Below are positions 10,883 through 43,186 of a stretch of 64,000 bases of DNA, in pieces. The notes beneath the pieces were generated by a model. It was not told the DNA's origin, made no database searches, and saw only the letters and a program-made list of their open reading frames with translations. Numbering within the stretch: position 1 is the first letter of the stretch; the number at the start of each line of letters is the position of its first letter. This DNA comes from Agrococcus sp. SGAir0287. Lineage in GTDB: Bacteria > Actinomycetota > Actinomycetes > Actinomycetales > Microbacteriaceae. Location: NCBI RefSeq assembly GCF_005484985.1, contig NZ_CP027942.1:1302001-1366000 (forward strand). The letters are read 5' to 3'. A program made the position numbers and the translations under genes.

Positions 10883-10895
10883 CCCAGCGTCCGGG

Positions 10896-19144: not shown

Positions 19145-19513
19145 GTGACCGCAACCCAACGGACCATCGAGCTCGTGCAGGCCGCCGCGAAGGCGGCGGA
19201 CGGCGTCCTCGGCACCGACATCGTCGGCCTCGACGTGTCGGAGCGGCTCCCGCTCACCGACGCGTTCCTGCTCGCGACCGGCTCGTCCGAGCGGCAGGTC
19301 TCGGCGATCGCACGCGCGATCGAGGACGACCTGCTCGAGCTCGGCGCGAAGCCGCTGCGTCGCGAGGGCCGCGCCGACGGCCGCTGGGTGCTCATCGACC
19401 TCGGCGACCTCGTCGTGCACGTCTTCCACGAGGACGAGCGGCAGTACTACCAGCTCGAGCGGCTGTGGCGGGACTGCCCGACCATCGCGCTCGACCTGCC
19501 CGCCGCGGACTGA
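19145..19513 (+). CDS. rsfS: Ribosomal silencing factor RsfS
   Basis: A 122-residue protein that binds bL14 and blocks subunit joining when nutrients are short. The family core is clear: GTDIVGLDVSERLPLTDAF, LLATGSSERQVSAIARAIED, and the LGDLVVHVFHEDERQYYQLERLW end, which is the diagnostic motif. It starts at GTG, 5 nt after the preceding gene, with GAGGA as ribosome site overlapping that gene's end. The nadD-hypothetical-rsfS order is conserved in actinobacteria. Confidence 0.94.
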   Translation: MTATQRTIELVQAAAKAADGVLGTDIVGLDVSERLPLTDAFLLATGSSERQVSAIARAIEDDLLELGAKPLRREGRADGRWVLIDLGDLVVHVFHEDERQYYQLERLWRDCPTIALDLPAAD

Positions 19514-19534
19514 CGTCCGCGTCCCCCGCGCCGC

Positions 19535-19583
19535 TTGCGCAGCGGCGGGGCCGTGGGCTACCGTCGCGTTGTAAACGTTTCCA
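19535..19583 (+). promoter_or_regulatory. Promoter and LacI-type operator of the glycoside operon
   Basis: TTGCGC (19535-19540) and TACCGT (19559-19564) are 18 nt apart. Just downstream, on the expected transcription start, lies TGTAAACGTTTCCA (19570-19583) with the AAACGTTT core typical of LacI-family operators. This fits autorepression by the first gene. A GC hairpin that could end the rsfS transcript overlaps the -35. Confidence 0.75.
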
Positions 19584-19637
19584 GTCAGTGCCCCGAGCGG
19601 TGACGGGATGCGCATCCGAGGTGCGAGGGAGCACGCG

Positions 19638-20627
19638 ATGGCCGAGGGCTCGACGCTGGCAGCCGTCGCCGCGCGTGCCGGCGTCTCGATCGCCAGCGCC
19701 TCCCGTGCGCTGAACGGCGGCATCGCGTCCACCGCGACGATCGCCCGCGTGCAGCAGGCGGCCGACGACCTCGGCTACCGCCCGAACCTCATGGCGCGCG
19801 GCCTCCAGTCCGGCCGCACGGGGCAGGTCGCGATGCTCGTGCCAGACGCCGCGAACCCCGTGTACGCGCGCATGATGAGCGCGCTGCAGTCCGAGCTGGA
19901 CGCGCACGGCATCCGGCTGCTCATGCAGCAGGTGCCCGCGGAGCCCGTCGACGCGATCGACGCGTTGAGCGCGGGGCTCGTCGACGGCGCGGTCGTCGTG
20001 GCGCTGCGCGTCACGGACGCGCTCGTGCGCGCCGTGCGCCGGGCGGCCGTGCCGGTCGTCGTCCTCGGCCTCGTCGAGGCGGCGGGCATCGACAGCGTGC
20101 GGGCGGACTCGCGATCGGGCATGGCGCTGCTCGTCGAGCACCTCGCCTCGCGCGGCGCGCACCGCGTCGGGCTCGTCGTGGGCCCGACGGACACCACGCC
20201 GGGTCGCACGCGTCTCGACGGCTTCGTCGCCGCGTGCCGTGCGCAGGGCGTCGACGCGGGGCTCGTCGAGGTAGCCGAGGACTTCACGCACGCGGCTGCG
20301 CGCCCGGCGGCGCGCGCGCTGCTGGCGCGCGGCGTGCCGGACGCCATCGTCGCGGCGAACGACGCGATGGCCCTCGCCACGCTGCGCGAGTGCGCGACGC
20401 TGGGGCTGCGTGTGCCGCACGACCTGCTGCTCGCCGGGCTCGACGACACGGAGCCGGCCGAGCTCTCGGTGCCGAGCCTGACGAGCGTCGACCTCGGCGC
20501 CCACGAGCGCGCACGCATCGCCGCGCGCACGCTGCTCGCGCGCATCGACGGCGCCGGCCCGTCCGGCGCCACGGCCGTCGCGCCGCGGCTCGTCGTGCGC
20601 GAGTCGACCACGGAGGAGACCGCATGA
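19638..20627 (+). CDS. LacI-family transcriptional regulator
   Basis: A 329-residue repressor. The N-terminal helix-turn-helix is TLAAVAARAGVSIASASRAL followed by the hinge helix DDLGYRPNLMARGLQSGRT. A periplasmic-binding-protein-like effector domain fills the rest (VAMLVPDAANPVYARMMSAL, PDAIVAANDAMALATL, LLAGLDDTEPAELSVPSLTSV). The frame opens ten codons earlier, but the ATG at 19638 has GAGGGA at the right distance. The LacI-type operator 55 nt upstream suggests autoregulation and control of the downstream importer and catabolic genes. Its stop overlaps the first permease gene, so regulator and transporter are on one message. Effector unknown. Confidence 0.9.
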   Translation: MAEGSTLAAVAARAGVSIASASRALNGGIASTATIARVQQAADDLGYRPNLMARGLQSGRTGQVAMLVPDAANPVYARMMSALQSELDAHGIRLLMQQVPAEPVDAIDALSAGLVDGAVVVALRVTDALVRAVRRAAVPVVVLGLVEAAGIDSVRADSRSGMALLVEHLASRGAHRVGLVVGPTDTTPGRTRLDGFVAACRAQGVDAGLVEVAEDFTHAAARPAARALLARGVPDAIVAANDAMALATLRECATLGLRVPHDLLLAGLDDTEPAELSVPSLTSVDLGAHERARIAARTLLARIDGAGPSGATAVAPRLVVRESTTEETA

Positions 20628-21550
20628 CCGCCGTCGCCACGCGGCCGGAGGCGCCGACGCCTCCCGCGCCGTCGCGCCGCCGTCGCGGGCGGCAGGAGTG
20701 GAGCGCCTACCTGCTCTTCGTGCCCGCGATGATCCCCATCCTCGCCTTCAGCGTCTACCCGCTCGCCCAGGGCATCGCCCTCGGCTTCACCGACGCGCAA
20801 TCGGGGCTGAACGCGGTGACGACGTTCACGGGCATCGACAACTACGTGCGACTGGCCGACTACTCATTGTTCTGGCAGTCGTTCGGGATCGGACTCGTGT
20901 GGGCGTTCTCGGTGACGCTCATCCAGTTCGTGGCCTCGCTGTGCCTCGCGATGCTGCTGAACGCGAACCTCTGGGGCCAGGGCATCGCGCGCACGATCGC
21001 GCTCATCCCGTGGGCGATGCCGCCCGTCATCATCGCGATCATGTGGCGGTTCATGCTCCACCCCACCTACGGCGCCATCAACGGCGGGCTCGGCGCGCTC
21101 GGGCTGCCCGACGACACGAACTGGCTCGGCACGGCGCAGTGGGCGCTGCCCGCCGTGATCCTCGTCGGCGTGTGGGCGGGCATGCCGCAGACGACCATCA
21201 CGCTGCTCGCGGGGCTGCAGGGCATCGACGACCAGCTGCACGAGGCCGCGCAGCTCGACGGCGCCGGTCGCTGGCAGCGGTTCTGGAACATCACGATCCC
21301 CGGCCTGCGTCCCGTCATCGTCGCGATCACGACGCTCGACTTCATCAACAACTTCAACTCGTTCGCCCTGGTGTACGTGCTCACGGCGGGCGCCTACGGC
21401 ACGATGCTGCCGATGCTCTTCGCCTACAACGAGGCGTTCCGATACGGCAACTTCGGCCTGGCGAGCGCGATGGGCAACGTCATCGTCGTCGTGATCGCGG
21501 TCTTCCTGTTCGTCTACCTGCGGGCCCAGGCGAAGGCGAGGACCGCATGA
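20624..21550 (+). CDS. Sugar ABC transporter permease (MalF/UgpA-like)
   Basis: A 308-residue inner-membrane subunit with six predicted helices. The cytoplasmic EAA loop that docks the ATPase is LHEAAQLDGAGRWQRFWNIT, with IPGLRP following. An N-terminal Arg-rich cytoplasmic stretch (PSRRRRGRQEW) precedes helix 1. This is the CUT1 type that imports oligosaccharides, glycosides or glycerophosphodiesters. The start overlaps the LacI stop. No ATPase gene is in the operon, so it probably shares a general MsiK-like ATPase encoded elsewhere, as is common in actinobacteria. Confidence 0.93.
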   Translation: MTAVATRPEAPTPPAPSRRRRGRQEWSAYLLFVPAMIPILAFSVYPLAQGIALGFTDAQSGLNAVTTFTGIDNYVRLADYSLFWQSFGIGLVWAFSVTLIQFVASLCLAMLLNANLWGQGIARTIALIPWAMPPVIIAIMWRFMLHPTYGAINGGLGALGLPDDTNWLGTAQWALPAVILVGVWAGMPQTTITLLAGLQGIDDQLHEAAQLDGAGRWQRFWNITIPGLRPVIVAITTLDFINNFNSFALVYVLTAGAYGTMLPMLFAYNEAFRYGNFGLASAMGNVIVVVIAVFLFVYLRAQAKARTA

Positions 21551-22392
21551 GCACCCGCCGCACGACCGACCGCACGCTGCGCGCACTGCAATACGTCGCG
21601 CTCGCGCTCTTCGTCGTCTTCCTCGGCTTCCCGCTGCTCTTCCTCGTCACCGCGGCGTTCAAGACGCAGCAGGAGCTGCAGTCGCCCGACCCGCAGCTGC
21701 TGCCCTCGCAGTGGAACCTCGACAACTTCGTGGGCGCGATCGAGCGCGCCGGCCTCGGGCAGGCGGCGCTCAACAGCCTCGTCGTCGCGCTCGCCACGAC
21801 GGTGATCGTGGTCGCCGTGGCGCTGCCGGCCGCCTACGCGCTCGCCCGCTTCCAGACGCGCCTGCGCGGGCTCGCGACCGGCTGGATCCTGCTCAGCCAG
21901 GTCTTCCCGTTCATCCTCATCATCATCCCGCTCTTCCTCATGCTGCGGCCGATCGGGCTGAACGACACCCTCGCGGGCCTCGTCGTCGTGTACGTCGTCT
22001 GGTCGCTGCCCTTCGCGCTGTGGATGCTGCGCGGCTACGTCGCCGCGATCCCCGGCGAGCTCGAGGAGGCGGGTGCCGTGGACGGCGCCTCCCGCCTCCG
22101 CGTCCTCCGGTCGATCATCATGCCGCTGCTCGGTCCCGGACTCGTCGCGACGAGCCTGTTCGCGTTCATCGGATCGTGGAACGAGTTCTTCTTCGCGCTC
22201 GTGCTCATCAAGGACGAGGCGCTGCAGACGCTGCCCCAGCGGCTCGCGCTCTTCGTCGGCTCCGAGGGCCAGGTCGCACTCGGGCAGCTGGCCGCGGGCA
22301 GCCTCCTCGCCTGCATCCCGTCGCTCGTCTTCTTCGCCATCATCCAACGTCGTCTCACCTCCGGCCTGCTCTCGGGCGCGGTCAAGGGATGA
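21547..22392 (+). CDS. Sugar ABC transporter permease (MalG/UgpE-like)
   Basis: A 281-residue partner permease with six helices. Its EAA loop is LEEAGAVDGASRLRVLRSII followed by MPLLGPG, the CUT1 hallmark. The periplasmic-facing stretch after helix 1 (QSPDPQLLPSQWNLDNF) is typical of MalG-type subunits. It overlaps the first permease gene by ATGA and probably forms a heterodimer with it. Confidence 0.93.
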   Translation: MSTRRTTDRTLRALQYVALALFVVFLGFPLLFLVTAAFKTQQELQSPDPQLLPSQWNLDNFVGAIERAGLGQAALNSLVVALATTVIVVAVALPAAYALARFQTRLRGLATGWILLSQVFPFILIIIPLFLMLRPIGLNDTLAGLVVVYVVWSLPFALWMLRGYVAAIPGELEEAGAVDGASRLRVLRSIIMPLLGPGLVATSLFAFIGSWNEFFFALVLIKDEALQTLPQRLALFVGSEGQVALGQLAAGSLLACIPSLVFFAIIQRRLTSGLLSGAVKG

Positions 22393-22415
22393 CGGCTCAC
22401 CAGGGAGGGAACCCC

Positions 22416-23711
22416 ATGCACCGATCCATGAAGGCGGTGGCAGGCATCGGCGCCTGCGCCGCGCTGCTCACCGGCTGCGCCTTTGGCGGCGGCGGCGGCA
22501 CCCAGTCGTCCACCGACCCCGACGAGGAGGTGACGCTCACCTTCCAGTCGCTCGCGTTCCAGGATGCGACGATCCAGGCGACGCAGGACATCGTCGACGC
22601 CTGGAACGCCGACCACCCCGAGACGCAGGTCGAGGTGACGCAGGGCTCGTGGGACAACGTGCACGACCAGCTCGTGACGCAGTTCCAGGGCGGCGAGGCG
22701 CCGGACATCATCCACAACGAGGCCTCGGACATGACGGGCTTCGCGCAGGACGGCTTCCTGGCCGACCTCTCGCCGTACCTCTCGGACGACGTCGTCGACT
22801 CGGTGGGCGCGGGCATCTGGGACGCCGTGAGCATCGGCGACGAGGTCTTCGCCGCGCCCACGGTCATGCAGTCGTACGTCGTGTTCGCGAACACGGCCGC
22901 CTTCGAGGAGGCCGGCGTCGAGGTGCCCTCGGGCGACGCCCTGTCGTGGGACGATCTGCGCTCGACCGCCCAGCAGCTCACGGCGGACGGGCGCTTCGGC
23001 GTGGGCTGGGGCCTGCGCCAGCCGACGGCGCCGTTCATGAACCTCGCGCTCGGCTTCGACGGCACGTTCTTCGACGTCGCCGACGACGGCAGCGCGACGA
23101 TCGACGTCGGCGAAGGCGAGCTCGCGGTGCCCGAGGCCGTGCACGCGATGGCCTACGAGGACGCCTCGCTGGACCCCGTGACGCTCACGCAGTCCGGCGG
23201 CGACGTGCTGCCCGGCTTCCTCGGGGGCCAGTACGCCATGTACGTCGGCGGCTCCTACCTGGCGCAGCAGATCGCCGACTCGGCGCCCGACGGCTTCGCC
23301 TGGACGGTGCTGCCCCCGCTCGCAGGCTCCGACGGCAGCGCGCAGGGCACGAGCCCGCAGACGCTCTCCGTTCCCGCCGAGTCCGAGCACGTCGACCGCG
23401 CGGCCGCGTTCATCGACTACTTCATGCAGGCCGACAACCTCGCCGCGATCGGGCAGGGCGACTGCCTCATCCCCGCGAGCGAGGCGGCGCGTGCCGAGCT
23501 CGAGGCGGCGACCGATGGGCAGACCGGCTGGTCCGAGATGCTCGCGTCCGGCGCGACGCTCGAGGCCGCACCGTTCCAGCTCGCCGCGGACTACCCGCAG
23601 TGGAAGGACCAGTACGCGACGCCCGCCTTCCAGGAGTACCTCGCGGGCACGATCTCGCTCGACGAGCTGCAGCAGCGGCTGACCGACGGCTGGGATCAGG
23701 TCGGGTCCTGA
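22416..23711 (+). CDS. Sugar ABC transporter substrate-binding lipoprotein
   Basis: A 431-residue solute-binding protein (SBP family 1, UgpB/MalE fold). The signal peptide ends in the lipobox LTGC with Cys21, then a Gly/Ser/Asp linker. The mature domain has VTLTFQSLAFQD, the ATQDIVDAWNADHPETQVEV segment and repeated tryptophan and tyrosine positions usable for stacking on sugar rings. The ATG at 22416 has GGGAGGGA 5 nt upstream; an ATG overlapping the permease stop (22389) is in frame but lacks a ribosome site and would spoil the signal peptide. Ligand unknown. Confidence 0.92.
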   Translation: MHRSMKAVAGIGACAALLTGCAFGGGGGTQSSTDPDEEVTLTFQSLAFQDATIQATQDIVDAWNADHPETQVEVTQGSWDNVHDQLVTQFQGGEAPDIIHNEASDMTGFAQDGFLADLSPYLSDDVVDSVGAGIWDAVSIGDEVFAAPTVMQSYVVFANTAAFEEAGVEVPSGDALSWDDLRSTAQQLTADGRFGVGWGLRQPTAPFMNLALGFDGTFFDVADDGSATIDVGEGELAVPEAVHAMAYEDASLDPVTLTQSGGDVLPGFLGGQYAMYVGGSYLAQQIADSAPDGFAWTVLPPLAGSDGSAQGTSPQTLSVPAESEHVDRAAAFIDYFMQADNLAAIGQGDCLIPASEAARAELEAATDGQTGWSEMLASGATLEAAPFQLAADYPQWKDQYATPAFQEYLAGTISLDELQQRLTDGWDQVGS

Positions 23712-23758
23712 CGGACGCCGGACCGCGCACGACACGACAGGACAGGAGCGAGGACGCA

Positions 23759-24907
23759 GTGGCACGATCGATTGAGGACGCCGCGACCGGCGCGCTCGCC
23801 GGCTCGGCGGTGGGCGACGCGCTCGGCGGCGCCGCCGAGGGCAACCCGCCCGCCGTGATCCAGGAGCGCTACGGCGGGACGATCGAGGGGATCGTGCCCC
23901 CGTTCCACGCGGACTGGCGCACGGCACGGCCCATCGCGCCGTACCACAAGGGCGACGGGCACGTCACCGACGACACCCTCATGACGGGACTGCTCGTCGA
24001 CGTCTACGCCGAGGTGCGCAGGCATCTCACGGCGCACGACGTCGCCGAGCATCTCGTGCCGCGCATGATCCGCGAGGTCCGGTGGATCCCGGAGCTCGAG
24101 GCCGAGGCGCTGCCCCTGCAGCGCGTGTTCCTCGCGGAGAAGTGGCTCGTCGCGCGCCTGCACTACGGGCACGTCGACCCGCGCGAGGCCGGCGTCGGCA
24201 ACGTCGTGAACTGCGGCGCGACGATGTACGTCGCACCGATCGGTCTCGTGAACGCGGGAGACCCCGCGGGCGCCTACGCCGAGGCGATCGACGTCGCCGG
24301 CGCGCATCAGTCGAGCTACGGCCGCGAGGCCGCGGGGGTCTTCGCCGCGGCGGTCGCGGCCGCGGCTGCGCCGGACGCGACGGTCGCGAGCGTCGTCGAC
24401 GCGTCCCTCGCGCTCGCGAAGGACGGCACGCGCGCCGCCATCGAGGCCGTCGTCGAGGCGGCGTCGTCGCTGGACGGCTGGCGCGGCGACGGGCTCGCGG
24501 CGCTGCGCGACGCCGTGCGACCGTTCGACACGGTGGGGGACCACTACCGGCAGCCCGCGATGGATGCGCGGCTGCCGAGCCGCACCAAGGCCATCGAGGA
24601 GCTGCCGATCGCCTTCGGCATGCTCGTCGCGTGCGGCGGGGACTACCGCGAGGCGGTGCTGGGCGCCGTGAACTACGGGCGCGACTCCGACTCGATCGCC
24701 GTCATGGCGGGGGCCGTCGCCGGCGCGCTCGGCGGGGAGGCGGCGGTGCCTGCCGAGTGGATCGACGAGGTCGGCGCCGCGTCGCGACTCGACCTGCGCG
24801 CGCCGGGTGGCGTCGTCGCCGCCGTCGCACGCGAGGTGCTCGCGAGCGACGAGGCGCGGCTCGCCGCGCGCCGGTCGGTGGCCGAGCGACTCGGGATCGC
24901 CGCCTGA
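23759..24907 (+). CDS. ADP-ribosylglycohydrolase-family hydrolase 1 (canonical TDDT)
   Basis: A 382-residue DraG/ARH-fold enzyme. It opens with GALAGSAVGDALGGAAEG, and the metal-binding TDDT motif is at 70-73 (GHVTDDTLMTG). The second metal site is RDSDSIAVMAGAVAGA (Asp309, Asp311). So both halves of the dimagnesium site are present. Family members cut N- or O-glycosidic bonds of ADP-ribose or related ribosides. Here the setting is a sugar-import operon, so a small imported riboside or glycoside is a likelier substrate than ADP-ribosylated protein. Start is GTG with AGGAG about 10 nt upstream. It overlaps the next gene by one base (TGATG). Confidence 0.88.
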   Translation: MARSIEDAATGALAGSAVGDALGGAAEGNPPAVIQERYGGTIEGIVPPFHADWRTARPIAPYHKGDGHVTDDTLMTGLLVDVYAEVRRHLTAHDVAEHLVPRMIREVRWIPELEAEALPLQRVFLAEKWLVARLHYGHVDPREAGVGNVVNCGATMYVAPIGLVNAGDPAGAYAEAIDVAGAHQSSYGREAAGVFAAAVAAAAAPDATVASVVDASLALAKDGTRAAIEAVVEAASSLDGWRGDGLAALRDAVRPFDTVGDHYRQPAMDARLPSRTKAIEELPIAFGMLVACGGDYREAVLGAVNYGRDSDSIAVMAGAVAGALGGEAAVPAEWIDEVGAASRLDLRAPGGVVAAVAREVLASDEARLAARRSVAERLGIAA

Positions 24908-26253
24908 TGCTGCGGCTGACCTGGACGCAGCCGGAGGACCTCGCCGCCCACGCGCTCGCCGCCGCGCGCCTCGACGGCGTCGACGTCGCCGATCTCGAGG
25001 CCGAGCTCGTCGCAGCGGGCGGATCGCTCGACGCGCCCGCATCCGGCGCGACGCCGACGCGAGCCTCGGATGCGCTGCGCGCGGTCGCGACGCGGGTCAC
25101 GGCGGCGGCGTGCGCGCGACCGAGGCCGCGCGCGCTGCTCGAGGCCGAGCCCGACGAGTGGTCGGCCATGGCCGTCGCACCGCCATCCGTGCCCGTCGCG
25201 CCGGGGCTCGACGATCGCCTGCGCGGCGCGTGGCTCGGTCGCGCGATCGGCTGCCTCGTCGGCAAGCCCGTCGAGAAGATCCCGCGCGCAGGCATCCGCG
25301 CCATCGCGGAGGCCACGGGGCGATGGCCCGTGCGCGGCTACTTCACCGAGCGGGGGCTGCCCGACGCGGTCGCGGCCGCATGGCCCTGGAACCGCCGCTC
25401 ACGGCCGACGAGCCTCGACGGCGTCATCGACGGCATGCCCGAGGACGACGATCTCAACTTCGCCGTCCTCGCCCTCGTCGCGCAGGAGCGGCACGGCGAC
25501 GCGCTCACGACGGACGACGTCGCGCGGCTCTGGCTCGAGCACCTGCCGGCGGGCCGAATCTTCACGGCCGAGCGCATCGCGCTGCGCAACCTCCTCGCCG
25601 GCGACGAGCCCGACGTGGCGGCGGAGGCGGGCAATCCCTTCGTCGACTGGATCGGGGCACTCATCCGCGCCGACGCCTACGGCTGGGCGCATCCGGGCGA
25701 CGCCGCACGCGCCGCACGGCTCGCCGTCGCCGACGCGCGCCTCACGCATCGCCGCGCGGGCGTGCACGGCGCCGCCTGCATGGCCGGTGCCGCGGCGGCC
25801 GCCGTCGCAGGCGCCGCACCCCCGGAGGCGATCGAGGCGGGGCTCGCCTGCGTGCCGAGCGGCTCGCGCCTGGCGGAGGCCGTGCGGCTCGGCCGCGACC
25901 TCGCCGCCTCCGACCTCGACGACGAGGCCGCGCTCGACGTGCTGCACGAGCGCTACGGCGCCCTGCACTGGGTGCACGTGCTGCACAACGCGGCCGTGAT
26001 CGCCCTCGCGGCCATCCGGGGGGCTGACGACCTCGGCCATGCCGTCGGCCTCGCCGTCTCGGCGGGCTGGGACACCGACTCCGCAGGCGCGACCGTCGGC
26101 GGGCTCGTGGCCGCCCAGGGCACCGCGGCGATCCCGGCGCACCTCGCGGCTCCCATCCGCGGGATCTACCGCACGACCCTCGCAGGCTTCGACGGCGTGG
26201 CCTTCGACGCGCTCGCAGCACGGACGCTCGCCCTCGCACCGGTGCGCGCATGA
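24907..26253 (+). CDS. ADP-ribosylglycohydrolase-family hydrolase 2 (divergent EDDD)
   Basis: A 448-residue second member of the same fold, clearly not a recent duplicate. About 95 extra residues precede the core, which starts RLRGAWLGRAIGCLVGKPVEKI. The first metal motif reads PEDDDLNFAVLALV (E179-D182) instead of TDDT, and the second is GWDTDSAGATVGGLVAA (Asp389, Asp391). EDDD-type relatives form a recognisable bacterial subgroup, usually near sugar transporters, with no established substrate as far as I know. It is translated directly from the end of hydrolase 1 and overlaps the fusion protein gene. The two hydrolases may take successive steps or handle anomers. Confidence 0.85.
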   Translation: MLRLTWTQPEDLAAHALAAARLDGVDVADLEAELVAAGGSLDAPASGATPTRASDALRAVATRVTAAACARPRPRALLEAEPDEWSAMAVAPPSVPVAPGLDDRLRGAWLGRAIGCLVGKPVEKIPRAGIRAIAEATGRWPVRGYFTERGLPDAVAAAWPWNRRSRPTSLDGVIDGMPEDDDLNFAVLALVAQERHGDALTTDDVARLWLEHLPAGRIFTAERIALRNLLAGDEPDVAAEAGNPFVDWIGALIRADAYGWAHPGDAARAARLAVADARLTHRRAGVHGAACMAGAAAAAVAGAAPPEAIEAGLACVPSGSRLAEAVRLGRDLAASDLDDEAALDVLHERYGALHWVHVLHNAAVIALAAIRGADDLGHAVGLAVSAGWDTDSAGATVGGLVAAQGTAAIPAHLAAPIRGIYRTTLAGFDGVAFDALAARTLALAPVRA

Positions 26254-28223
26254 GCGCCCACGACCCGGACGAGGCGGCGACGAACACGCTCGACCCGCTC
26301 GTGCCCCGGCTCATCGACCGCCCGACCCTCGTCCCGCCGGACAGCGGGCTCGACGCCGCCGCGTTCGACGTCGCGAAGATCCTCGCCGCGCCCGACGATC
26401 CGGACGCCTGGCCGGCCTGGCGGGCCGCGATCGCGCACCTCGCCGAGGATGCGCGCGCACGGCTCGCCCACGACGACGCCGCCTACGACGCGGTGCCGTG
26501 GGCGTCGCGCTGCCGCGTCGCCGCGCAGATCTGGCTGTGGGACGAGCGCCTCTACGACTGGCGCGAGCGCCGCTTCACCCCCGACCGCCTGCTCGCCGCC
26601 TACGCCGACGTCGGCGGGCTCGACGGGCTCGTCCTGTGGCACGCGTACCCGTGCATCGGCATCGACGATCGCAACCAGTTCGACTGGTACCGCGACGCGC
26701 CCGGGCTCGCCGAGCTCGTCGCCGAGCTCCGCGGGCGCGGCGTGCGCGTGTTCGTCGACTACAACCCGTGGGACACGGGCACGCGTCGGGAGAAGGACGC
26801 CGACGGCCGCACCCGCTCGGACGGGGAGGCGCTGCGCCGCCTCGCCGACGCGCTCGGCGTCGACGGCGTCTTCCTCGACACCCTCAAGCACGCCGACGAG
26901 GACTTCCTGCGCTGGATGGGCGGCGATCGCCCGCTCGCGCTCGAGGGCGAGTCTCGCGCGCCGACCGAGCGCCTGCGCGACCACGTCCTGTCCTGGGCGC
27001 AGTGGTTCGCAGACTCGACCGCGCCCGGCGTCATGCGCGCCCGCCTCGTCGAGCGCCGCCACATGCTGCACTCGGTGCGCCGCTGGAACCGCGACCACCA
27101 CGAGGAGCTGCAGTCGAGCTGGATGAACGGCGTCGGCGTGCTCGTGTGGGACGCGGTCTTCGGCGTGTGGGTGGGCTGGAACGCCCGCGATCGCTCCACG
27201 CTGCGCCGCATGGCGCGCGTGCAGCGGGCGGCGCACGACCTGCTCGAGGCCGGCGCGTGGACGCCGCTCGGAGGTGCGACGGCGGCCGCCGCGGCCGACG
27301 GGGTCTACGGCTCGACGTTCCGGCTCGACGGCACGACGCTCGTGACGCTCGTGAACCGCGTCGACGTCGACCGCGAGGGCCCGTACCTGCCGGCGTCGTC
27401 GGGCAGCGCGTGGGACGTCACCGCAGGCGCCGCCGTGGTCGACGGCGTCGTGCGGATCCCCGCGCACGGCATCGCGGGCGTCGTCGTCGTGGAGGGGGAG
27501 GAGCCCGCCTGGCTCGCAGCGCTCGTCGCCGAGGCCGACGCCGACCGCCATGACCCGGACGCGTCGTTCCCCGCGCGGGAGGCCCGACTCGTGCCGCACG
27601 CTGCGAGCACGGGTGCGCCGCCGGCCGACGCCATCCGCATCGCACCCGGCACGCGGACGCACATGATCGAGTGGCGCCGACGCGAGACGGGGCTCGAAGG
27701 CGAGGCACCCTACGTCGAGGAGTGGAAGCCCCTGCCGCCGCGCCTGCACGACGTGCAGCGGCTCGAGCGAACCGTGACGCTGGGATCCGTGGCCGTCGCC
27801 GCGCGCCCCGTGACGGTCGGGGAGCTCGCCGCCTGGCGCGGCGAGCCCGCATCCGCCGACGCGGACGCCGCGGCGACGCGCGTCGACCTCGACGAGGCGC
27901 GCGCGTTCGCCCGCGATCGCGGCGCACGGCTGCCCACAGATGCCGAATGGCGCGAGGCCGCCGCCGATCCGGCATTCGAGCGGCCCGCGCCCACGCCGTG
28001 GGAGTGGACCGAGACGGAGCGCAGCGACGGGATCACGCGCCGCGTGCTGCTCGTCGGCGGCAGCGCGCGCGCCGTGGAGGGCTCCGACTGGTACGCCGAC
28101 GGTGGCCCGCAGCCGCCCGAGCGCGTCCTGGCCTGGCTGCGCACCGGGCTCGACCGCAGCGACGCGATCGGCCTGCGCCTCGCCTGGGACCTGCACGCCG
28201 CCGATCGCGAGGAGCGAGCATGA
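26250..28223 (+). CDS. TIM-barrel glycosidase-like protein fused to FGE/SUMF1-like domain
   Basis: A 657-residue protein with two parts. Residues about 40-350 resemble a glycoside hydrolase barrel: LDGLVLWHAYP, VFVDYNPWD (Asp170), DGVFLDTLK (Asp210) and LALEGES (Glu232/Glu234) supply acids at barrel-strand ends. A beta-rich segment follows (about 350-430). Residues about 505-650 look like the formylglycine-generating-enzyme/SUMF1 fold (RPVTVGELAAW, DEARAFARDRGARLPTDAEW, PWEWTET, then IGLRLAW). The catalytic cysteines of true FGE are missing; the only two cysteines lie in the first domain. The FGE part is therefore probably a binding or structural module. Exact GH family not recognised. Overlaps both neighbours. 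Confidence 0.7.
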   Translation: MSAHDPDEAATNTLDPLVPRLIDRPTLVPPDSGLDAAAFDVAKILAAPDDPDAWPAWRAAIAHLAEDARARLAHDDAAYDAVPWASRCRVAAQIWLWDERLYDWRERRFTPDRLLAAYADVGGLDGLVLWHAYPCIGIDDRNQFDWYRDAPGLAELVAELRGRGVRVFVDYNPWDTGTRREKDADGRTRSDGEALRRLADALGVDGVFLDTLKHADEDFLRWMGGDRPLALEGESRAPTERLRDHVLSWAQWFADSTAPGVMRARLVERRHMLHSVRRWNRDHHEELQSSWMNGVGVLVWDAVFGVWVGWNARDRSTLRRMARVQRAAHDLLEAGAWTPLGGATAAAAADGVYGSTFRLDGTTLVTLVNRVDVDREGPYLPASSGSAWDVTAGAAVVDGVVRIPAHGIAGVVVVEGEEPAWLAALVAEADADRHDPDASFPAREARLVPHAASTGAPPADAIRIAPGTRTHMIEWRRRETGLEGEAPYVEEWKPLPPRLHDVQRLERTVTLGSVAVAARPVTVGELAAWRGEPASADADAAATRVDLDEARAFARDRGARLPTDAEWREAAADPAFERPAPTPWEWTETERSDGITRRVLLVGGSARAVEGSDWYADGGPQPPERVLAWLRTGLDRSDAIGLRLAWDLHAADREERA

Positions 28224-29407
28224 CCGGTCCGCTCGAGGGGGTGCGCGTCATCGACGCCTCGACGCTGTTCGCCGGGCCGCTCGCGGCGACGTTCCTCGGC
28301 GACTTCGGCGCCGACGTCACGAAGATCGAGCACCCCTCGCGACCCGACGCCGCGCGCGGCCACGGGCAGGCGAAGGACGGCGTCAACCTGTGGTGGAAGA
28401 CGCTCGGACGCAACAAGCGCGCCGCGACGCTCGACCTGTCGACGCCCGACGGCGGCGACCTGCTCGTCGATCTCGCGCGTCACGCCGACGTGCTCGTCGA
28501 GAACTTCCGTCCCGGCACGCTCGAGCGCTGGGGCATCGGGCCCGATCGCCTGCTCGCGGCGAACCCGCGCCTCGTCCTCGCGCGCGTCACCGCGTTCGGG
28601 CAGACGGGACCGCTGGCGAGGCAGCCGGGCTTCGGCTCGATCGCCGAGGCGATGAGCGGCTTCGCCGCGCTCACGGGCGAGCCCGACGGCCCGCCCATCC
28701 TGCCGCCGTTCGGCCTCGCCGACGGCATCACCGCGCTCGCCACCGCCTACGCCTGCAGCATCGCGCTGCGGCACGCGGAGCGCACGGGCGAGGGGCAGGT
28801 GGTCGACATGGCCATCATCGAGCCGATCCTCATGCTGCTCGGCGGCGGCATCACCGCCTACGACCAGCTCGGCTACCTGCAGCCGCGCACCGGCAACCGC
28901 TCGGTGAACAACGCGCCGCGCAACGTGTACCGGACGCGCGATGGCCGCTGGGTCGCCGTATCGACGTCGTCGCAGTCGATCGCCGAGCGCGTCATGCGGC
29001 TCGTCGGGCGCCCCGACGTCGTCGACGAGCCGTGGTTCGCGACCGGCAGGGGTCGTGCGGCGCACGTCGACGAGCTCGACGACGCCGTCGCCGGCTGGAT
29101 CGGCGCGCGCGACCTCGCGGAGGTCGTCGACGCGTTCGAGCGGGTCGAGGCGGCGATCGGCGTCGTCGACGACGTCGCGGGGGTCATGGCGAACCCGCAG
29201 TACGACGCGCTCGGCACGATCCTCGAGATCGACGACGACGAGCTCGGGCGCATGCGCATGCAGAACGTGCTCTTCCGCCTGTCGCGCACCCCGGGCGCCG
29301 TCCAGCACACCGGCAGGCGGCACGGGGCCGACACCGCCGCCGTGCTCGCCGAGGTGGGCGTGACGCCCGAGCAGCTCGCGGCGCTGCGGGAGCGGGGGAT
29401 CGCATGA
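28220..29407 (+). CDS. Class III (CaiB/BaiF) CoA-transferase
   Basis: A 395-residue family III CoA-transferase, which moves CoA between carboxylic acids through aspartyl-anhydride intermediates. It opens LEGVRVIDASTLFAGPLAATFLGD (family start, quoted in part as LEGVRVIDAS) and has DVTKIEHP, ENFRPGTLERWGI, and FGLADGITALATAY. The last contains the aspartate that aligns with the catalytic residue of formyl-CoA transferase. Members act on formate/oxalate, succinate, itaconate, mesaconate, citramalate and carnitine; the substrate cannot be read here. It overlaps the GH-FGE fusion gene (ATGA) and the CitE-like gene downstream, so it belongs to the sugar-import operon. Confidence 0.87.
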   Translation: MTGPLEGVRVIDASTLFAGPLAATFLGDFGADVTKIEHPSRPDAARGHGQAKDGVNLWWKTLGRNKRAATLDLSTPDGGDLLVDLARHADVLVENFRPGTLERWGIGPDRLLAANPRLVLARVTAFGQTGPLARQPGFGSIAEAMSGFAALTGEPDGPPILPPFGLADGITALATAYACSIALRHAERTGEGQVVDMAIIEPILMLLGGGITAYDQLGYLQPRTGNRSVNNAPRNVYRTRDGRWVAVSTSSQSIAERVMRLVGRPDVVDEPWFATGRGRAAHVDELDDAVAGWIGARDLAEVVDAFERVEAAIGVVDDVAGVMANPQYDALGTILEIDDDELGRMRMQNVLFRLSRTPGAVQHTGRRHGADTAAVLAEVGVTPEQLAALRERGIA

Positions 29408-30174
29408 CCGTCGCGCTCTACGTGCCGGGTGATCGACCCGATCGCTTCGCGAAGGCCGTCGCATCCGGCGCCGACGTCGTGATCCTCGACCTCGAGGATG
29501 CCGTGGCCGCCGATGCGAAGGCGACGGCAAGGGAGGCCGTGGACGCGTGGCTGGCCGAGCACGGCCCGGCGGGCCTCCAGGTGCGCGTCGCCGCCGGATC
29601 GAGCGACGACCTCGCGATGCTCGCCGTCCACGCCGTCGACGTGCGGCTGCCGAAGGTGCGCGGCGCCGCCGACGTCGACGCCGTCGTCGACCGGCTCGAC
29701 CGACCGATCCACGCGCTCGTCGAGGACGCCGCCGGGCTGACGTCCCTCGACGAGATCGGCAGGCACCCGGCCGTCGCCTCGCTCGCGATCGGGGAGGCCG
29801 ACCTGCGTGCCGATCTCGGCGCGTCGAGCGACGCGGTGCTGCAGCACGCCCGCATCCTGCTCGTCGTCGCGGCGCGCGCCGCCGGCCTCCCCGCGCCGCT
29901 CATGGCCGCCTACCCCGCGGTGCGCGATCTCGACGGCCTCGAGGCCGACTGCCGCGCGGGCGCCGCGCTCGGGTTCGGCGGCCGCGCCGCGATCCACCCG
30001 GCCCAGGTCGAACGCATCCGCAGCGCGTTCGCGCCCTCCGAGGACGAGGTCGCCTGGGCGCGGGCGACCCTCGACGCGCTCGGCGATGCGGGGGTCGCGA
30101 CGCTGGGCGACGGCCAGATGGTCGACGAGGCGATGGCGCGTCGTGCACGAGCGATCCTCGCGCGGCTGCGCTGA
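29404..30174 (+). CDS. CitE-like / HpcH-HpaI family C-C lyase
   Basis: A 256-residue TIM-barrel lyase related to the citrate lyase beta chain. The opening LYVPGDRPDRFAKAVASGAD and VILDLEDAVAADAK carry the conserved Arg and acidic residues for CoA ester and Mg binding; IGEADLRADLG and GFGGRAAIHPAQVERI follow. Relatives split malyl-CoA, citramalyl-CoA or 3-hydroxy-3-methylglutaryl-CoA. It overlaps the CoA-transferase, so the pair may activate and then cleave a beta-hydroxy dicarboxylate. It differs from the second CitE-like protein at 43680 (only short motifs shared), so the two are separate subfamilies. It is last in the operon and converges on a VOC gene. Confidence 0.85.
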   Translation: MTVALYVPGDRPDRFAKAVASGADVVILDLEDAVAADAKATAREAVDAWLAEHGPAGLQVRVAAGSSDDLAMLAVHAVDVRLPKVRGAADVDAVVDRLDRPIHALVEDAAGLTSLDEIGRHPAVASLAIGEADLRADLGASSDAVLQHARILLVVAARAAGLPAPLMAAYPAVRDLDGLEADCRAGAALGFGGRAAIHPAQVERIRSAFAPSEDEVAWARATLDALGDAGVATLGDGQMVDEAMARRARAILARLR

Positions 30175-30202
30175 CGACGCCGCGACCGCGGCCGCCGGCG
30201 GC

Positions 30203-31054
30203 TCAGGCGCTCAGGCGGATGCGGTTCCCCCACGGGTCGTCGAACGCCAGCGCGCGGCCGTCGTCGGCGACGGCGACGCCGCGCGCCTGCAGGCGCTCGC
30301 GCGCGGCGCCGAGATCGTCGGCGCCCGGCACAACGACGTCGACGAGCCCGAGGCCCAGCGTGTCGTCGCGACGGCCGGCGCCCGCCGAGTTCCAGGTGTT
30401 CATCGCCATGTGGTGGTGGTAGCCGCCGGCGCTCACGAAGAGCGCCTGCGCGCCGTAGGACGCCGTCTCGGCGAACCCGAGCGCGTCCACGTAGAAGTCG
30501 CGCGCGGTGGAGACGTCGCCCACCTGCAGGTGCACGTGGCCGACGGTGGCTCCCGCGGGGATGCCTGCGACGTCCCTCGTGCCGAGGTGCTCGGCGACGA
30601 ACGCGCGCGGGTCGAATCCCTCCGTGGTCATGTGGACGCGATCGCCCTGCCACCGCCACGTCTCGCGCGGTCGATCGACGTACAGCTCCACGCCGTTGCC
30701 GTCCGGGTCGACGAAGTAGAACGCCTGCGACACGTGGTGGTCGCCGACGCCGGCGAAGACCATGCCCGGCACCTGCGTCATGCGCACGACCGCCGCGGCG
30801 AGCGACGCGTGGTCGGGGTACAGCACGGCCGTGTGGAAGAGACCCGCGTCGTGCGGGTTCGGACCGCGCAGGTCCGGCGCCTCCTCGAGGCGCACGAGCG
30901 TCGCGCCGTCGACGCCGAGCTCGACGGCGCCGGGCGCGTGGCCGACGGGCTCGAGGCCCGGCCCGTCCTGGTACCAGCGCTCGAGGCGCGCGAGGTGGGC
31001 GGTGCGGAGGGTGACGGGACCCATGCGGGTCGCGTCAGGCAGCAGATCGTTCAC
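30203..31054 (-). CDS. VOC-family ring-cleavage-like dioxygenase
   Basis: A 283-residue protein with two vicinal-oxygen-chelate repeats. The metal ligands expected for an extradiol type are visible as His in AGLFHTAVLY and GHVHLQVGD and Glu in GNGVELYVDR. The architecture resembles Bacillus CatE (catechol 2,3-dioxygenase). Substrate unknown; glyoxalase- or isomerase-type activity is possible. The longest frame starts at a GTG (31054) without a clear ribosome site. An ATG ten codons later (31024) is an equal candidate. It lies alone between the convergent glycoside operon and the methylcitrate operon. Confidence 0.75.
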   Translation of the reverse strand: MNDLLPDATRMGPVTLRTAHLARLERWYQDGPGLEPVGHAPGAVELGVDGATLVRLEEAPDLRGPNPHDAGLFHTAVLYPDHASLAAAVVRMTQVPGMVFAGVGDHHVSQAFYFVDPDGNGVELYVDRPRETWRWQGDRVHMTTEGFDPRAFVAEHLGTRDVAGIPAGATVGHVHLQVGDVSTARDFYVDALGFAETASYGAQALFVSAGGYHHHMAMNTWNSAGAGRRDDTLGLGLVDVVVPGADDLGAARERLQARGVAVADDGRALAFDDPWGNRIRLSA

Positions 31055-31103: not shown

Positions 31104-32228
31104 TCATTCGGTCGCGCCCGGCACGTGCCGCTCGTCGGGGCCGTCGTAGGCCGACAGCGGACGGATGAGGGCGTTCGACGCGGCCTGCTCCATGACGTGC
31201 GCCGTCCATCCCGTGATCCGCGATGCGACGAAGAGCGGCGTGAACGTCGGGGTGTCGAAGCCCATGAGGTGGTAGGCCGGACCCGAGGGGTAGTCGAGGT
31301 TCGGATGGATGCCCTTCCGCTCCACGAACTCGCGCTCGAGCTCCTCGTACAGCGCCAGCATGTCCTGCGCGCCGTAGTGCTCGACGAGCCGGTCGAGGGC
31401 GGCGCGCATCGTCGGCACGCGGCTGTCGCCGTGCTTGTAGACCCGGTGGCCGAAGCCCATGATCTTGCGCTTCTCGGCGAGCGCCCGATCCAGCCACGTC
31501 GACACGTTCGACGCCTCGCCGATCTCGTCGAAGAGATGCATGACGGCCTCGTTCGCGCCGCCGTGCAGCGCGCCCTTCAGCGCGCCGATCGCGCCGACGA
31601 CGGCCGAGTAGAGGTCGGAGGTCGTCGAGGTGATGACGCGCGCCGTGAACGTCGACGCGTTGAACGAGTGCTCGGCGTAGAGCACCATCGAGCGCCGGAA
31701 GGCGTCGACGACGACCTCCTCGGGCTCCTCGCCGAACGTCATCCAGAGGAAGTTCGCCGAGAAGTCGAGGTCGTCGCGGGGCTCGACGACGTCCTGGCCG
31801 CGGCGGCGGCGCTGGTCGTAGGCGACCATCGCCGGGATGCGCGCGAGCAGCCGCACCGACTTGTCGAGGTCCGACGTCGACGACGGGTCGTTCGCGTCGG
31901 GGTCGTTCGCGCCCGTCGCGGACACGGCCGTGCGCAGCACGTCCATGGGGTGCGCCGTCGTCGGCGCGCGGTCGATGAGCTCGCGCGTGAGCGGGTCGAG
32001 CGCGCGGTCGCCGCGCTCCTGCTCCTGCAGCGCCGCGAGCTCGGACCCGGTCGGCAGCTCGCCGTGCCACAGCAGGTGCGCGACGGCCTCGAACGACTGC
32101 GTGTCCGCGAGCTCCTGCACGGGGTAGCCGCGGTAGAGCAGGCTGTTCGTGTCGGGGTTGACCTTCGAGATCGCCGTCGTGTCGACGACGACGCCCGCGA
32201 GGCCCTTCTTGACGTCCTGGTCGGTCAT
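31104..32228 (-). CDS. prpC: 2-methylcitrate synthase / citrate synthase
   Basis: A 374-residue short-type citrate synthase. Active-site residues are in GALHGGANEAVM (His), GFGHRVYKHGDSR (His and Arg) and the downstream SGPAYHLMGFD region (Asp). The length and its place directly after prpB and prpD indicate condensation of propionyl-CoA with oxaloacetate. Actinobacterial enzymes of this type often also use acetyl-CoA. The ATG has AAGGGAG upstream and follows prpB by 15 nt. Last gene of the methylcitrate operon. Confidence 0.93.
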   Translation of the reverse strand: MTDQDVKKGLAGVVVDTTAISKVNPDTNSLLYRGYPVQELADTQSFEAVAHLLWHGELPTGSELAALQEQERGDRALDPLTRELIDRAPTTAHPMDVLRTAVSATGANDPDANDPSSTSDLDKSVRLLARIPAMVAYDQRRRRGQDVVEPRDDLDFSANFLWMTFGEEPEEVVVDAFRRSMVLYAEHSFNASTFTARVITSTTSDLYSAVVGAIGALKGALHGGANEAVMHLFDEIGEASNVSTWLDRALAEKRKIMGFGHRVYKHGDSRVPTMRAALDRLVEHYGAQDMLALYEELEREFVERKGIHPNLDYPSGPAYHLMGFDTPTFTPLFVASRITGWTAHVMEQAASNALIRPLSAYDGPDERHVPGATE

Positions 32229-32243
32229 GCTGCTCCCTTGCTC

Positions 32244-33158
32244 TCAGTCCTGCCTCGGTGCGCCGGGCACCTCGAAGTCGAACACGCCCGCGTCGAAGGC
32301 CGCGTACGCCTGGTAGTCGTTGAGCTCGTAGAGCCTCGCTCGAGTCTGCATCGTCGGCACCTGCGACGCCAGGGATCCCTCGGCGTCGAGCGCGTCGAGC
32401 GCCCGCTCGATCGCGCCGAACGCGACGCGCAGCAGCGAGACGGGGTGGATGACCATGTTCACGCCGACGTCCTCGAGCTGCTGCGCGGTCCACAGCGGGC
32501 TCTTGCCGAACTCGGTCATGTTGGCGAGGATCGGCACCTCGACGGCGGCGCGGACGGCGGCGAGCTCGTCGAGCGACGCCATCGCCTCGGGGAAGATCGC
32601 ATCGGCGCCGGCGTCCTGCAGCGCCTTCGCGCGGTCGATCGCCGCGTCCAGGCCGTCGACGCCGCGCACGTCGGTGCGGGCCATGATGACGAGCCCGGGG
32701 TCGCGCCGGGCGGCGACCGCTGCGGCGATGCGCTGGGTGGCGGTCGCCGTCGACACGACCTCCTTGCCGTCGAGGTGCCCGCACCGCTTGGGGTTCACCT
32801 GGTCCTCGACGTGCAGGCCGGCGACGCCCGCATCCTCGAGCTCGTGGACCGTGCGCGCGACGTTCATCGGCTCGCCGAAGCCGGTGTCGGCGTCGACGAG
32901 CACCGGCAGCGACGTCTGGCGTGCGACCTGGTGGGCGCGCTGCGCGACCTCGGTGAGGGTCGTGAGGCCGATGTCGGGCAGGCCGAGCTCTGCGGCCATG
33001 ACCGCGCCCGAGAGGTAGACGCCCTCGAAGCCCTTGGCCTCGATGAGCGCGGTGGACAGCGGCGTGAAGGCGCCGGGGAAGCGCTGGATGCGTCCCGACG
33101 CGAGGCCGTGGCGGAACGCCTGGCGCTTCGCGCGCGCGTCGACGGGGGAGGAGAGCAT
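32244..33158 (-). CDS. prpB: Methylisocitrate lyase
   Basis: A 304-residue member of the isocitrate lyase/PEP mutase superfamily. It cleaves 2-methylisocitrate to pyruvate and succinate. It shows GVYLSGAVMAAELGLPD, DADTGFGEP (Mg-binding Asp), the catalytic-cysteine motif PKRCGHLDGKEVV, and ARTDVRGVDGLDAAI. The start overlaps the prpD stop by one base (TGATG), so translation is coupled. Confidence 0.95.
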   Translation of the reverse strand: MLSSPVDARAKRQAFRHGLASGRIQRFPGAFTPLSTALIEAKGFEGVYLSGAVMAAELGLPDIGLTTLTEVAQRAHQVARQTSLPVLVDADTGFGEPMNVARTVHELEDAGVAGLHVEDQVNPKRCGHLDGKEVVSTATATQRIAAAVAARRDPGLVIMARTDVRGVDGLDAAIDRAKALQDAGADAIFPEAMASLDELAAVRAAVEVPILANMTEFGKSPLWTAQQLEDVGVNMVIHPVSLLRVAFGAIERALDALDAEGSLASQVPTMQTRARLYELNDYQAYAAFDAGVFDFEVPGAPRQD

Positions 33159-34666
33159 CAGAAGAGCCCGCTCGTCGTCGCCGGCGCGATGAGCCCGGCG
33201 GGAGCGACGACGTGCAGCTCGCGCACCTCGTCGACCGTGAGCTCCGGCAGGCGCTCGGCGAGCGCGACGAAGCGTGCGAGCTCGCTCGCCTCGACGACGC
33301 CGTCGGCGAGCGTGTGCAGCTTCTCGAGGTACTGCGCCCTGCCGAACGGCCGCGCGCCTGCGGGGTGCGCGTCGGCGACGGCGATCTCGTCGACGATGCG
33401 CTCGCCGCTCGTCAGCGTGATCTCGATGCGGCCGCCGAACGCCTTCCGGTCGGGATCGGGATCGTGGTACCGCGCGGTCCAGGCGGGGTCCTCGACCGTC
33501 GTGACCTTCTGCCACAGCGCGACGGTGTCGGGTCGGCCGGCGCGCTCGGGCGCGTACGAGTCGACGTGGTGCCAGCCGCCGTCCTGCAGCGCCACCGTGA
33601 CGATGTACGGGATCGAGTGGTCGAGCGTCTCGCGGGACGCCGTCGGGTCGTACTTCTGCGGGTCGTTCGCGCCCGAGCCGATGACGTGGTGGGTGTGGTG
33701 GCTCGTGTGCAGCACGATCGAGGCGACGTTCGCGGCATCGCGCAGCTCGGGGCGCTCGCGTCCGAGGCGGCGCGCGAGGTCGATCCACGCCTGCGCCTGG
33801 TACTCGGCCGAGTGCTCCTTCGTGTACGTGTCGAGGATCGCGCGCTTCGGCTCGCCTGCGACGGGCAGCGGCACCTCGTAGCGCGCGTCCCAGCCGCCGA
33901 GCAGCCAGGCGATGAACCCGTCCTCGCCCTCGTAGATGGGCGTCGGGCTCGTCTGGCCGCGCATCGCGCGATCGACGGCCTCGACGGCCATCTTCCCCGC
34001 GAAGGCGGGAGCGTGCGCCTTCCACGTCGAGATCTCGCCCTTGCGGGACTGCCGCGTCGCGGTCGTCGTGTGGAGCGCCTGGCCGACGGCCTGGAAGATC
34101 GTCTCGGGCGCGAGGCCGAGCAGCGTGCCGATGCCGGCGGCGGCCGAGGGGCCGAGGTGCGCGACGTGGTCGATCTTGTGCTCGTGGAGGCAGATGGCGC
34201 GCACGAGGTCGACCTGGATCTCGTAGCCCGTCGCGATGCCGCGCACGAGCGCCGCGCCGTCGGCACCGACGTGCTGCGCGACGGCGAGGATCGGCGGGAT
34301 GTTGTCGCCGGGGTGCGAGTAGTCGGCGGCGAGGAACGTGTCGTGGAAGTCGAGCTCGCGCACCGCGACGCCGTTCGCCCACGCCGCCCACTCGGGGCTC
34401 ACGCGGTCGTCGACGCCGAAGACCGACGCGCCGGGAGCGTACGGATGGCGCTGCGCCTGCTCGCGTGCGGCCGTCACGGGGGCGCGCGTGAGGCTCGCGA
34501 TCGCGACCGACGCGTTGTCGATCACGCGGTTCACGATCATCTCGGCGACGTCGTCCTCGACCGGGACGGGGTCGGCAGCGACCTCGGCGATGCGCCAGGC
34601 GAGCTGCCGCTCGCGGGGGAGGTGCTCGGCGCTGCGATGGGCGCGGAGGTGGTGGAGCTCGGTCAT
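33158..34666 (-). CDS. prpD: 2-methylcitrate dehydratase
   Basis: A 502-residue MmgE/PrpD-family dehydratase that converts 2-methylcitrate to 2-methyl-cis-aconitate, without an iron-sulfur cluster. It shows [34 protein letters not shown] (conserved Asp/His segment), [14 protein letters not shown] and [12 protein letters not shown]. The length is normal. It overlaps the GntR gene by 4 nt upstream and prpB by 1 nt downstream. No AcnD or methylaconitate isomerase is in the window; hydration by a general aconitase is expected. Confidence 0.95.

Positions 34667-41192: not shown

Positions 41193-43182
<1,990 letters not shown>

Positions 43183-43186
<4 letters not shown>

Follow-up and report, generated by a model that had tools for sequence, protein, structure and literature searches.

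What does a bacterium degrade with an operon that joins a sugar importer and two ADP-ribosylglycohydrolase (ARH)-fold hydrolases to a class III CoA-transferase and a CitE-like lyase? The question is raised by nine genes of Agrococcus sp. SGAir0287, which lie in a stretch of 64,000 nucleotides (the window; contig NZ_CP027942.1, positions 1,302,001 to 1,366,000 of the forward strand) of a genome (G000) of 3,084,767 bases in a single contig. We propose, and give the proposal an even chance, that they form a catabolic operon, induced by its substrate, which breaks down a conjugate of a beta-hydroxy acid with a pentofuranosyl (most likely ribofuranosyl) group. We hold more tentatively, at somewhat short of even, that the ARH-fold enzymes are ribosidases feeding a dedicated CoA-transferase/lyase pair that acts on a new beta-hydroxy acid, and that the Streptomyces proteins SCO2028-2031 are carbon-catabolic enzymes and not protein de-ADP-ribosylases. 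The architecture, an induced importer with hydrolases, is ordinary; the joining of ARHs to a CoA-transferase/lyase pair is unusual.

Organization of the Operon

The nine open reading frames (ORFs) all lie on the + strand and extend from 19608 (or 19638, the alternative start of the LacI gene) to 30174, as the original prediction had described, and Pfam returned the families it had named for the products: LacI, BPD_transp_1 (twice), SBP_bac_1, ADP_ribosyl_GH (twice), FGE-sulfatase, CoA_transf_3 and HpcH_HpaI. It had also described seven of the eight junctions as overlapping or shorter than 25 nt and the other as 47 nt, which is correct by the called starts and stops. The LacI/permease 1 and permease 1/permease 2 junctions overlap by 4 nt each; permease 2 and the binding-protein (SBP) gene overlap by 4 nt if the latter starts at 22389, or are separated by 23 nt if it starts at 22416; the SBP/ARH1 gap of 47 nt is the widest of the eight; and the last four junctions, from ARH1/ARH2 through CoA-transferase/CitE, overlap by 1, 4, 4 and 4 nt. 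A consensus search around the operon found no simple terminator.

Co-inheritance among Actinobacteria

Relatives were collected by a genome scan with an alignment of the seventh product, a glycoside hydrolase (GH)-like protein fused to a formylglycine-generating enzyme (FGE)-like domain. The best 80 of 186 confirmed relatives were retained and ten loci from a further search were added, so that 90 loci were mapped, or 88 without two duplicates. Loci were counted by tblastn with a single query for each gene, which can miss diverged copies; related species of Kribbella, Micromonospora and Glycomyces are numerous among them, and some contigs are partial.

The search for the gene set in other actinobacterial genomes, which had been suggested as a check, found that it recurs. 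The usual order is LacI-permease-permease-SBP-ARH1-ARH2-(kinase)-GH-(esterase)-CoA-transferase-CitE-(esterase), with the genes in parentheses variable, and 24 of the 25 actinobacterial genera in the set of 80 have at least one locus in which GH is followed by the CoA-transferase and CitE; the remaining genus is Arthrobacter (sp. M4, L076). In 77 of the 79 loci that extend at least 4.5 kb downstream, the CoA-transferase and CitE genes share the strand (exceptions L024 and L076), and both ARHs are present in 80 of 81 loci with at least 7 kb upstream (exception L024); in Lumbricidophila (L055) the LacI gene is displaced. The catalytic residues examined are conserved in nearly every copy. In 63 of 81 loci that strand also carries a ribokinase-like PfkB gene, which stood out as the clearest extra conserved gene when neighbouring ORFs of 41 loci were clustered, although the clusters were noisy with shadow frames and included some genes adjacent by chance. 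Where at least 6 kb lies downstream, a linked esterase occurs in 23 of 77 loci.

The GH gene is present in 10 of 99 related genomes. CoA-transferase orthologues of at least 62% identity are found in exactly these 10 and are absent from the remaining 89, where the next best match has 42%. ARH1 orthologues are confined to the 10 GH-bearing genomes and one other (G040). The claim that the CoA-transferase and CitE belong to one unit with the remaining genes is borne out by this co-inheritance: in GH-bearing loci the pair stands alongside, and not regularly elsewhere, which would have told against it. The data support a co-inherited single catabolic unit that includes the pair.

Of 396 sampled Actinomycetota genomes, nine in addition to that of the window had an ARH1 orthologue at E 1e-60 or better. 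All nine belong to one genus, and the surroundings of their loci are, we presume, those of Streptomyces. All nine share the order VIT1, four ARHs, a PfkB/ribokinase gene (in six), CoA-transferase, CitE and lgt; their CoA-transferases are 66-70% and their CitEs 43-46% identical to those of the window, and LacI, permease, SBP and GH had no match in the 16 to 19.5 kb at these loci. For one of them (L183) Pfam confirmed the four ARHs, PfkB, CoA-transferase, CitE and VIT1, while lgt was named by eye, as were gltB and trpA/trpB near L180 and L183. By position and locus number, we take the four ARHs to be SCO2028-SCO2031 and the pair SCO2032-2033 of S. coelicolor, with gltB presumably SCO2026 and lgt SCO2034. 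If this equation holds, the S. coelicolor cluster resembles the operon in its ARHs, kinase, CoA-transferase and CitE and differs in that no importer or LacI was found there. Since the Streptomyces-like loci keep the pair and the ARHs without importer, LacI and GH, it looks as if the pair goes with the ARHs and the importer is an add-on; the importer and GH are not essential to the unit.

Some loci carry features of their own. At L024 (G089) the neighbours of a GH-FGE paralogue (9069-11102) are divergent LacI, PfkB-like and permease genes and, judged by eye, a GH4-like gene; neither the ARHs nor the CoA genes had a match at that locus. In Kribbella loci (e.g. L059 5319-7813) ARH1 and ARH2 are separated by a PhoD-like phosphatase gene that runs the opposite way; such a match occurs in 10 loci, L059 adds a second secreted protein (by eye) in the same position, and we leave the gene as lineage-specific. 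In Herbiconiux ginsengi the CitE match is interrupted by ~320 bp of inserted sequence that contains repeated motifs (L053 13608-13931), and the frame is open across the stretch read.

The CoA-transferase and the CitE-like Lyase

The class III CoA-transferase (28220..29407, + strand), assigned by Pfam, NCBIfam, alignment and tree, matches CoA_transf_3 over its full length (E 3e-112 over 366 positions), and Asp168, which we take to be the catalytic Asp of the class III family, is conserved in the operon copies. Its top NCBIfam model is the succinate-glutarate CoA-transferase (SUGCT), at 224.2 against a cut-off of 750, and its PDB matches are led by a formyl-CoA transferase (10uh), with a succinate-hydroxymethylglutarate CoA-transferase (9br7) second. 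In a tree of 53 sequences, which included 27 actinobacterial and five rhizobial operon copies and 20 paralogues and left out the Streptomyces copies, the 27 form one clade (100/99), the five adjoin it weakly (93/71, below the strong threshold), and the 20 sampled paralogues fall outside both. Long branches were flagged for the Sphingopyxis copy and for paralogues L163, L173 and L179.

The CitE-like CoA-ester C-C lyase (29404..30174, + strand), assigned by NCBIfam and by alignment to the beta-hydroxyacyl-CoA lyase Rv2498c, belongs to HpcH_HpaI and has the Mg- and CoA-binding residues, R61, E107 and D133 being the equivalents of Arg64, Glu112 and Asp138 of Rv2498c. According to the accessible part of a study of Rv2498c, Mg2+ is bound via Glu112 and Asp138, Arg64 lies near the hydroxyl, the substrate carboxylate contacts the backbone of residues 136-138, and Met133, Gly135 and Val181 touch the 3-methyl group; the enzyme cleaves (R)-3-hydroxy-3-methylglutaryl (HMG)-CoA and (S)-citramalyl-CoA far better than malyl-CoA (PMC6689899). 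In the Rv2498c numbering, Arg64, Glu112, Gly135 and Asp138 are conserved in 84 of 84 operon CitEs. Several positions of the acid pocket differ: Met133 is replaced by Ala or Gly in 80 of the 84, Ala136 by Glu in all, and Asp179 by Met or Leu in 82. Glu131 of the operon CitE is present in all 93 actinobacterial operon copies examined. The nine Streptomyces-like CitEs likewise have Glu for Ala136 (9/9), with Gln at 179 (9/9) and His for Arg64 in one; this Glu is absent from the copies of rhizobia and Sphingopyxis.

These replacements hint, without proving it, that the acid handled by the operon CitE is not plain citramalate or HMG, and this copy may have changed its acid. The window encodes a second CitE (43680-44549) with the Rv2498c residues at 133, 134, 136, 137 and 179 and Ile at 181, so the organism probably has a separate lyase for the usual substrates. 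This gene lies in a second acyl-CoA cluster (39585-45769), with carboxylase-like and biotin-carboxylase-like genes (by eye), a RipB-like hydratase gene (43183-43683) and an acyl-CoA dehydrogenase gene (44546-45769); the cluster looks like a leucine/itaconate-type route and offers an internal contrast to the operon CitE. Convergent with the operon on the - strand are methylcitrate-cycle genes (31104-34666; 2-methylcitrate/citrate synthase, PrpB, PrpD-like).

Among known systems, RipABC (Ict-Ich-Ccl) itaconate degradation likewise employs a CoA-transferase and then a CitE-type C-C lyase. However, the operon CitE scores 159.9 against the RipC cut-off of 375, the operon is linked to glycoside hydrolases, and Pfam found no RipB-type hydratase among its nine genes.

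The original prediction had named a glycoside acylated with HMG, citramalate or malate, from which the acid would be freed, charged with CoA and cleaved, giving acetyl-CoA together with acetoacetate, pyruvate or glyoxylate. SUGCT as top model of the CoA-transferase, though far below its cut-off, the two PDB matches, the activities of Rv2498c and the linked esterases of relatives all speak for it. Its weight was slightly raised because Val181 is retained in 55 of the 84 operon CitEs (Ala in the other 29 and in the window copy) and because 8khl, which we take to be a RipC-type citramalyl-CoA lyase, shows that such lyases vary at 133-137: it differs from Rv2498c at 133, 134, 136 and 137 and retains Asp179 and Val181. 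We nevertheless consider it unlikely in this form, in view of the altered pocket, whose Glu recurs in the Streptomyces-like copies, the separate lyase with an Rv2498c pocket and the low scores against RipC and SUGCT. The pocket comparison thus lowered an HMG or citramalyl glycoside as first choice and made the acids named less likely; the esterase linked in 23 of 77 loci does fit an acyl part. Malate glycosides of the bacillithiol kind were dropped by reasoning only, as free malate needs no CoA-transferase.

The ARH-fold Hydrolases

ARH1 (23759..24907) and ARH2 (24907..26253, both + strand) were assigned by Pfam and motif conservation, and both fit the PF03747 fold with acidic metal motifs. 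In ARH1 the motifs T70-D-D-T73 and D309/D311 are conserved in at least 98% of 84 loci; ARH2 has an N-terminal extension of ~100 residues, E179-D-D-D182 in place of TDDT, and D389/D391. ARH1 falls below the cut-offs of the curated equivalogs Tri1 (47.8 against 490) and DraG (38 against 337.05), and no NCBIfam family matched ARH2. Fusions of ARH to GH and of PfkB to GH exist among the homologues. A third PF03747 gene of the genome lies outside the window (L001, G000:C1:2793027-2793839). The yegTUV operon of E. coli combines a transporter with the ARH-like YegU and the PfkB-like YegV; we know of no CoA-transferase or lyase in it.

Given the fold and its metal motifs, it was reasonable to consider that the ARHs reverse ADP-ribosylation of protein, nucleic acid or NAD-derived small molecules, with the kinase and CoA genes recycling the products in a salvage of ADP-ribose-like compounds. 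In the accessible parts of the relevant papers, the Streptomyces homologues are listed accordingly, SCO2028-2030 as putative ADP-ribosyl protein hydrolases (PMC5087735) and SCO2028-2031 as uncharacterised DraG/ARH homologues (PMC9411070). However, the part available of a further study reports SCO2028 and SCO2030 without detectable activity on the one substrate used, synthetic U-alpha-ADPr (PMC13036486), and the S. coelicolor ARH assayed in what we could consult of another is SCO5809, outside the SCO2028-2031 cluster (PMC11833690). The distance of ARH1 from Tri1 and DraG also tells against ADP-ribose salvage, which has no evident place for a CoA-transferase and lyase, and the sugar importer, together with a secreted or anchored esterase in relatives, points to external food. 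We judge it improbable.

Relatives in Other Lineages

Relatives of ARH1 occur in a similar gene order on plasmids of Hyphomicrobiales, the gene set recurring on those of Ensifer/Sinorhizobium, and the ATPase UgpC is annotated in all seven annotated rhizobial loci. Of 11 Hyphomicrobiales loci, five have the CoA-transferase, and in four of those CitE was also detected; the pair was not found in the other six (L146, L147, L148, L150, L154 and L156). L146 has an adjacent ribokinase gene in place of the pair, PfkB matches lie on the opposite strand at L150 and L154, and ARH2 is missing too at L148, which ends at the end of its record, and at L156. A rhizobial ARH2 of 699 aa (L145 10172-12271) matches PF03747 over residues 15-297, leaving ~400 residues without a Pfam family.

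On the Sphingopyxis plasmid pSFD01, genes for a TonB receptor, ribokinase, GH-FGE, GH127 and CoA-transferase share one strand, and a CoA ester lyase, symporter, LysR and carboxylesterase are encoded on the other strand beyond the record start. Farther afield, a Bacteroidota GH-FGE homologue on a Spirosoma plasmid (L142 13776-15950) lies by a GH28 gene and near Gfo/Idh/MocA oxidoreductase genes, with no CoA-transferase or lyase annotated in that stretch.

The GH127 of Sphingopyxis, in the place of the ARHs, would suit a further possibility: that the acid handled by the CoA-transferase and CitE derives from the sugar, in branched or oxidised form (such as a branched-chain furanose acid), and not from an acyl part or aglycone. 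Small residues together with the invariant Glu could make room in the pocket for a larger polar substituent, but no dehydrogenase or isomerase is present among the nine genes, and the ribokinase-like gene of relatives implies that the free sugar is phosphorylated; we think such a route a little less probable even than ADP-ribose salvage. Least probable of all is that the pair merely rides along after an ancestral operon merged two independent induced pathways: it was not found in ARH operons at the six Hyphomicrobiales loci, L149 and L157, but stays with the ARHs in all nine Streptomyces-like loci, which have no importer, regulator or GH match.

The GH-FGE Fusion Protein

The seventh gene (26250..28223, + strand; Pfam, alignments, structure-model search) encodes a fusion of two parts, a GH13-like barrel with its beta domain at aa 55-419 and an FGE/EgtB-like domain at aa 453-650. 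Pfam matches FGE-sulfatase over residues 535-591 only and nothing in the N-terminal part, and several database records name the protein "SUMF1/EgtB/PvdO family nonheme iron enzyme". FGE activity was rejected, as aa 453-650 contain no cysteine, hence no active-site cysteines, and the invariant columns of the alignment hold none either. The barrel with C-terminal beta domain is the fold of clan GH-H; with the GH domain alone, Foldseek comparison of the predicted model gave mainly GH13-type matches, and with the full-length model GH30 xylanases were also among them. Compared with GH13/clan GH-H hydrolases, the protein has no Pfam GH13 match, ~14% identity and an FGE-like tail. D210, E232 and E234 are invariant in alignments of 13 rows and, more widely, 34 rows, while D301 is invariant in the 13 and below 90% in the 34; Phe replaces the region II Arg of GH13, and the placing of these residues in GH13 regions I-IV is tentative. 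In the phylum scan with the GH-FGE alignment, rows outside the window's genome, among the matches listed, cover the FGE part only, so the scan says little on the GH part.

Regulator, Operator and Importer

The LacI-family regulator (19608..20627, start 19608 or 19638, + strand; Pfam, NCBIfam) has UriR and RbsR as nearest NCBIfam models, with scores far under cut-off. A motif search of the window, shuffles and the whole genome identified a LacI-type operator, TTGTAAACGTTTCCA (19569..19583, + strand): the window has one site, none of 100 window shuffles contains a match at up to 2 mismatches, and at that tolerance the site is the sole one genome-wide (3.08 Mb), so that LacI appears to regulate locally. 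In 53 of 79 loci, mostly outside Kribbella, an AACGTT core precedes the LacI match by no more than 400 nt (a raw, uncontrolled count). The operator had been placed on a promoter; the operator itself holds up, but a consensus search of 19300-30500 gave no sigma-70-type promoter to support the placement.

The importer is of CUT1 type, with two MalF/MalG-type permeases (20624..21550 and 21547..22392) and a sugar-binding SBP_bac_1 lipoprotein (22416..23711, alternative start 22389), all on the + strand (ORF calls, Pfam, NCBIfam). Pfam found no cognate ATPase among the nine products; CUT1 importers commonly share an ATPase and do not require one in the operon.

Proposed Pathway

From the observed gene content, order, co-inheritance and conserved catalytic residues we infer every substrate and the direction of flow of the ribofuranosyl-conjugate pathway. 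LacI would repress the operon through its one operator until an inducer arrives. The CUT1 permeases and their binding protein, working with an ATPase encoded outside the operon, would import the conjugate, and its glycosidic bonds would be cleaved in the cytoplasm by ARH1, ARH2 and the GH13-like enzyme. Ribose would then be phosphorylated by a ribokinase, encoded in the operon of many relatives and elsewhere here, and the beta-hydroxy acid would be freed, in some lineages by the linked esterase, and charged by the class III CoA-transferase. The CitE-like lyase would split the resulting CoA ester into an oxo acid and an acyl-CoA. None of the nine genes encodes a hydratase or dehydrogenase, which suggests that the acid should already be beta-hydroxylated. 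A riboside had been named as an alternative substrate and is favoured by the ribokinase-like gene of 63 of 81 loci. The proposal also draws on the comparable gene content of the Hyphomicrobiales plasmids, of pSFD01 and of the nine Streptomyces-like loci, and on the ARH-GH and PfkB-GH fusions.

Several observations weigh against this proposal. The Agrococcus operon has no kinase gene (six PfkB genes lie elsewhere in the genome) and no esterase gene, and the extra kinase of relatives, for which ribokinase TIGR02152 was the best family in five of five tested, scores 259.8-279.4 bits, under the cut-off of 299.65. ARH specificity is not readable from sequence. The pocket argument is an alignment to one liganded structure as described in one paper, and both the retention of Val181 and the variation in 8khl blunt it. 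The join of actinobacterial and rhizobial CoA-transferases may be a long-branch artefact, according to a warning of the tree tool. Among relatives, Pseudochrobactrum has ARH1 alone, the importer and four ARH matches occur without the pair in Nonomuraea (L149) and G040 (L157), and the stretches of pSFD01 read contain GH127 and no ARH match; because GH127 stands in for ARH there, the identity of the sugar is less secure in Sphingopyxis and it may be another furanose.

No description of the nine-gene set was found in the open literature, a search whose coverage excludes most subscription journals, in agreement with the original prediction that no described pathway has this composition; a search for HMG with ribofuranosides gave only unrelated papers among the matches listed. 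On the more tentative reading given at the outset, the ARHs and the CoA-transferase/CitE pair would belong to a widespread catabolic pathway that is new to the literature.

If the proposal is correct, an environmental riboside conjugate, eaten by these bacteria, remains to be found. The gene order, kept in two phyla, would tie uncharacterised ARH homologues to a concrete pathway, and the GH13-like/FGE-like fusion family would gain a probable sugar-cleaving role. The part played by the ARH homologues of Streptomyces and its kin would become testable by ordinary knock-outs and growth assays.

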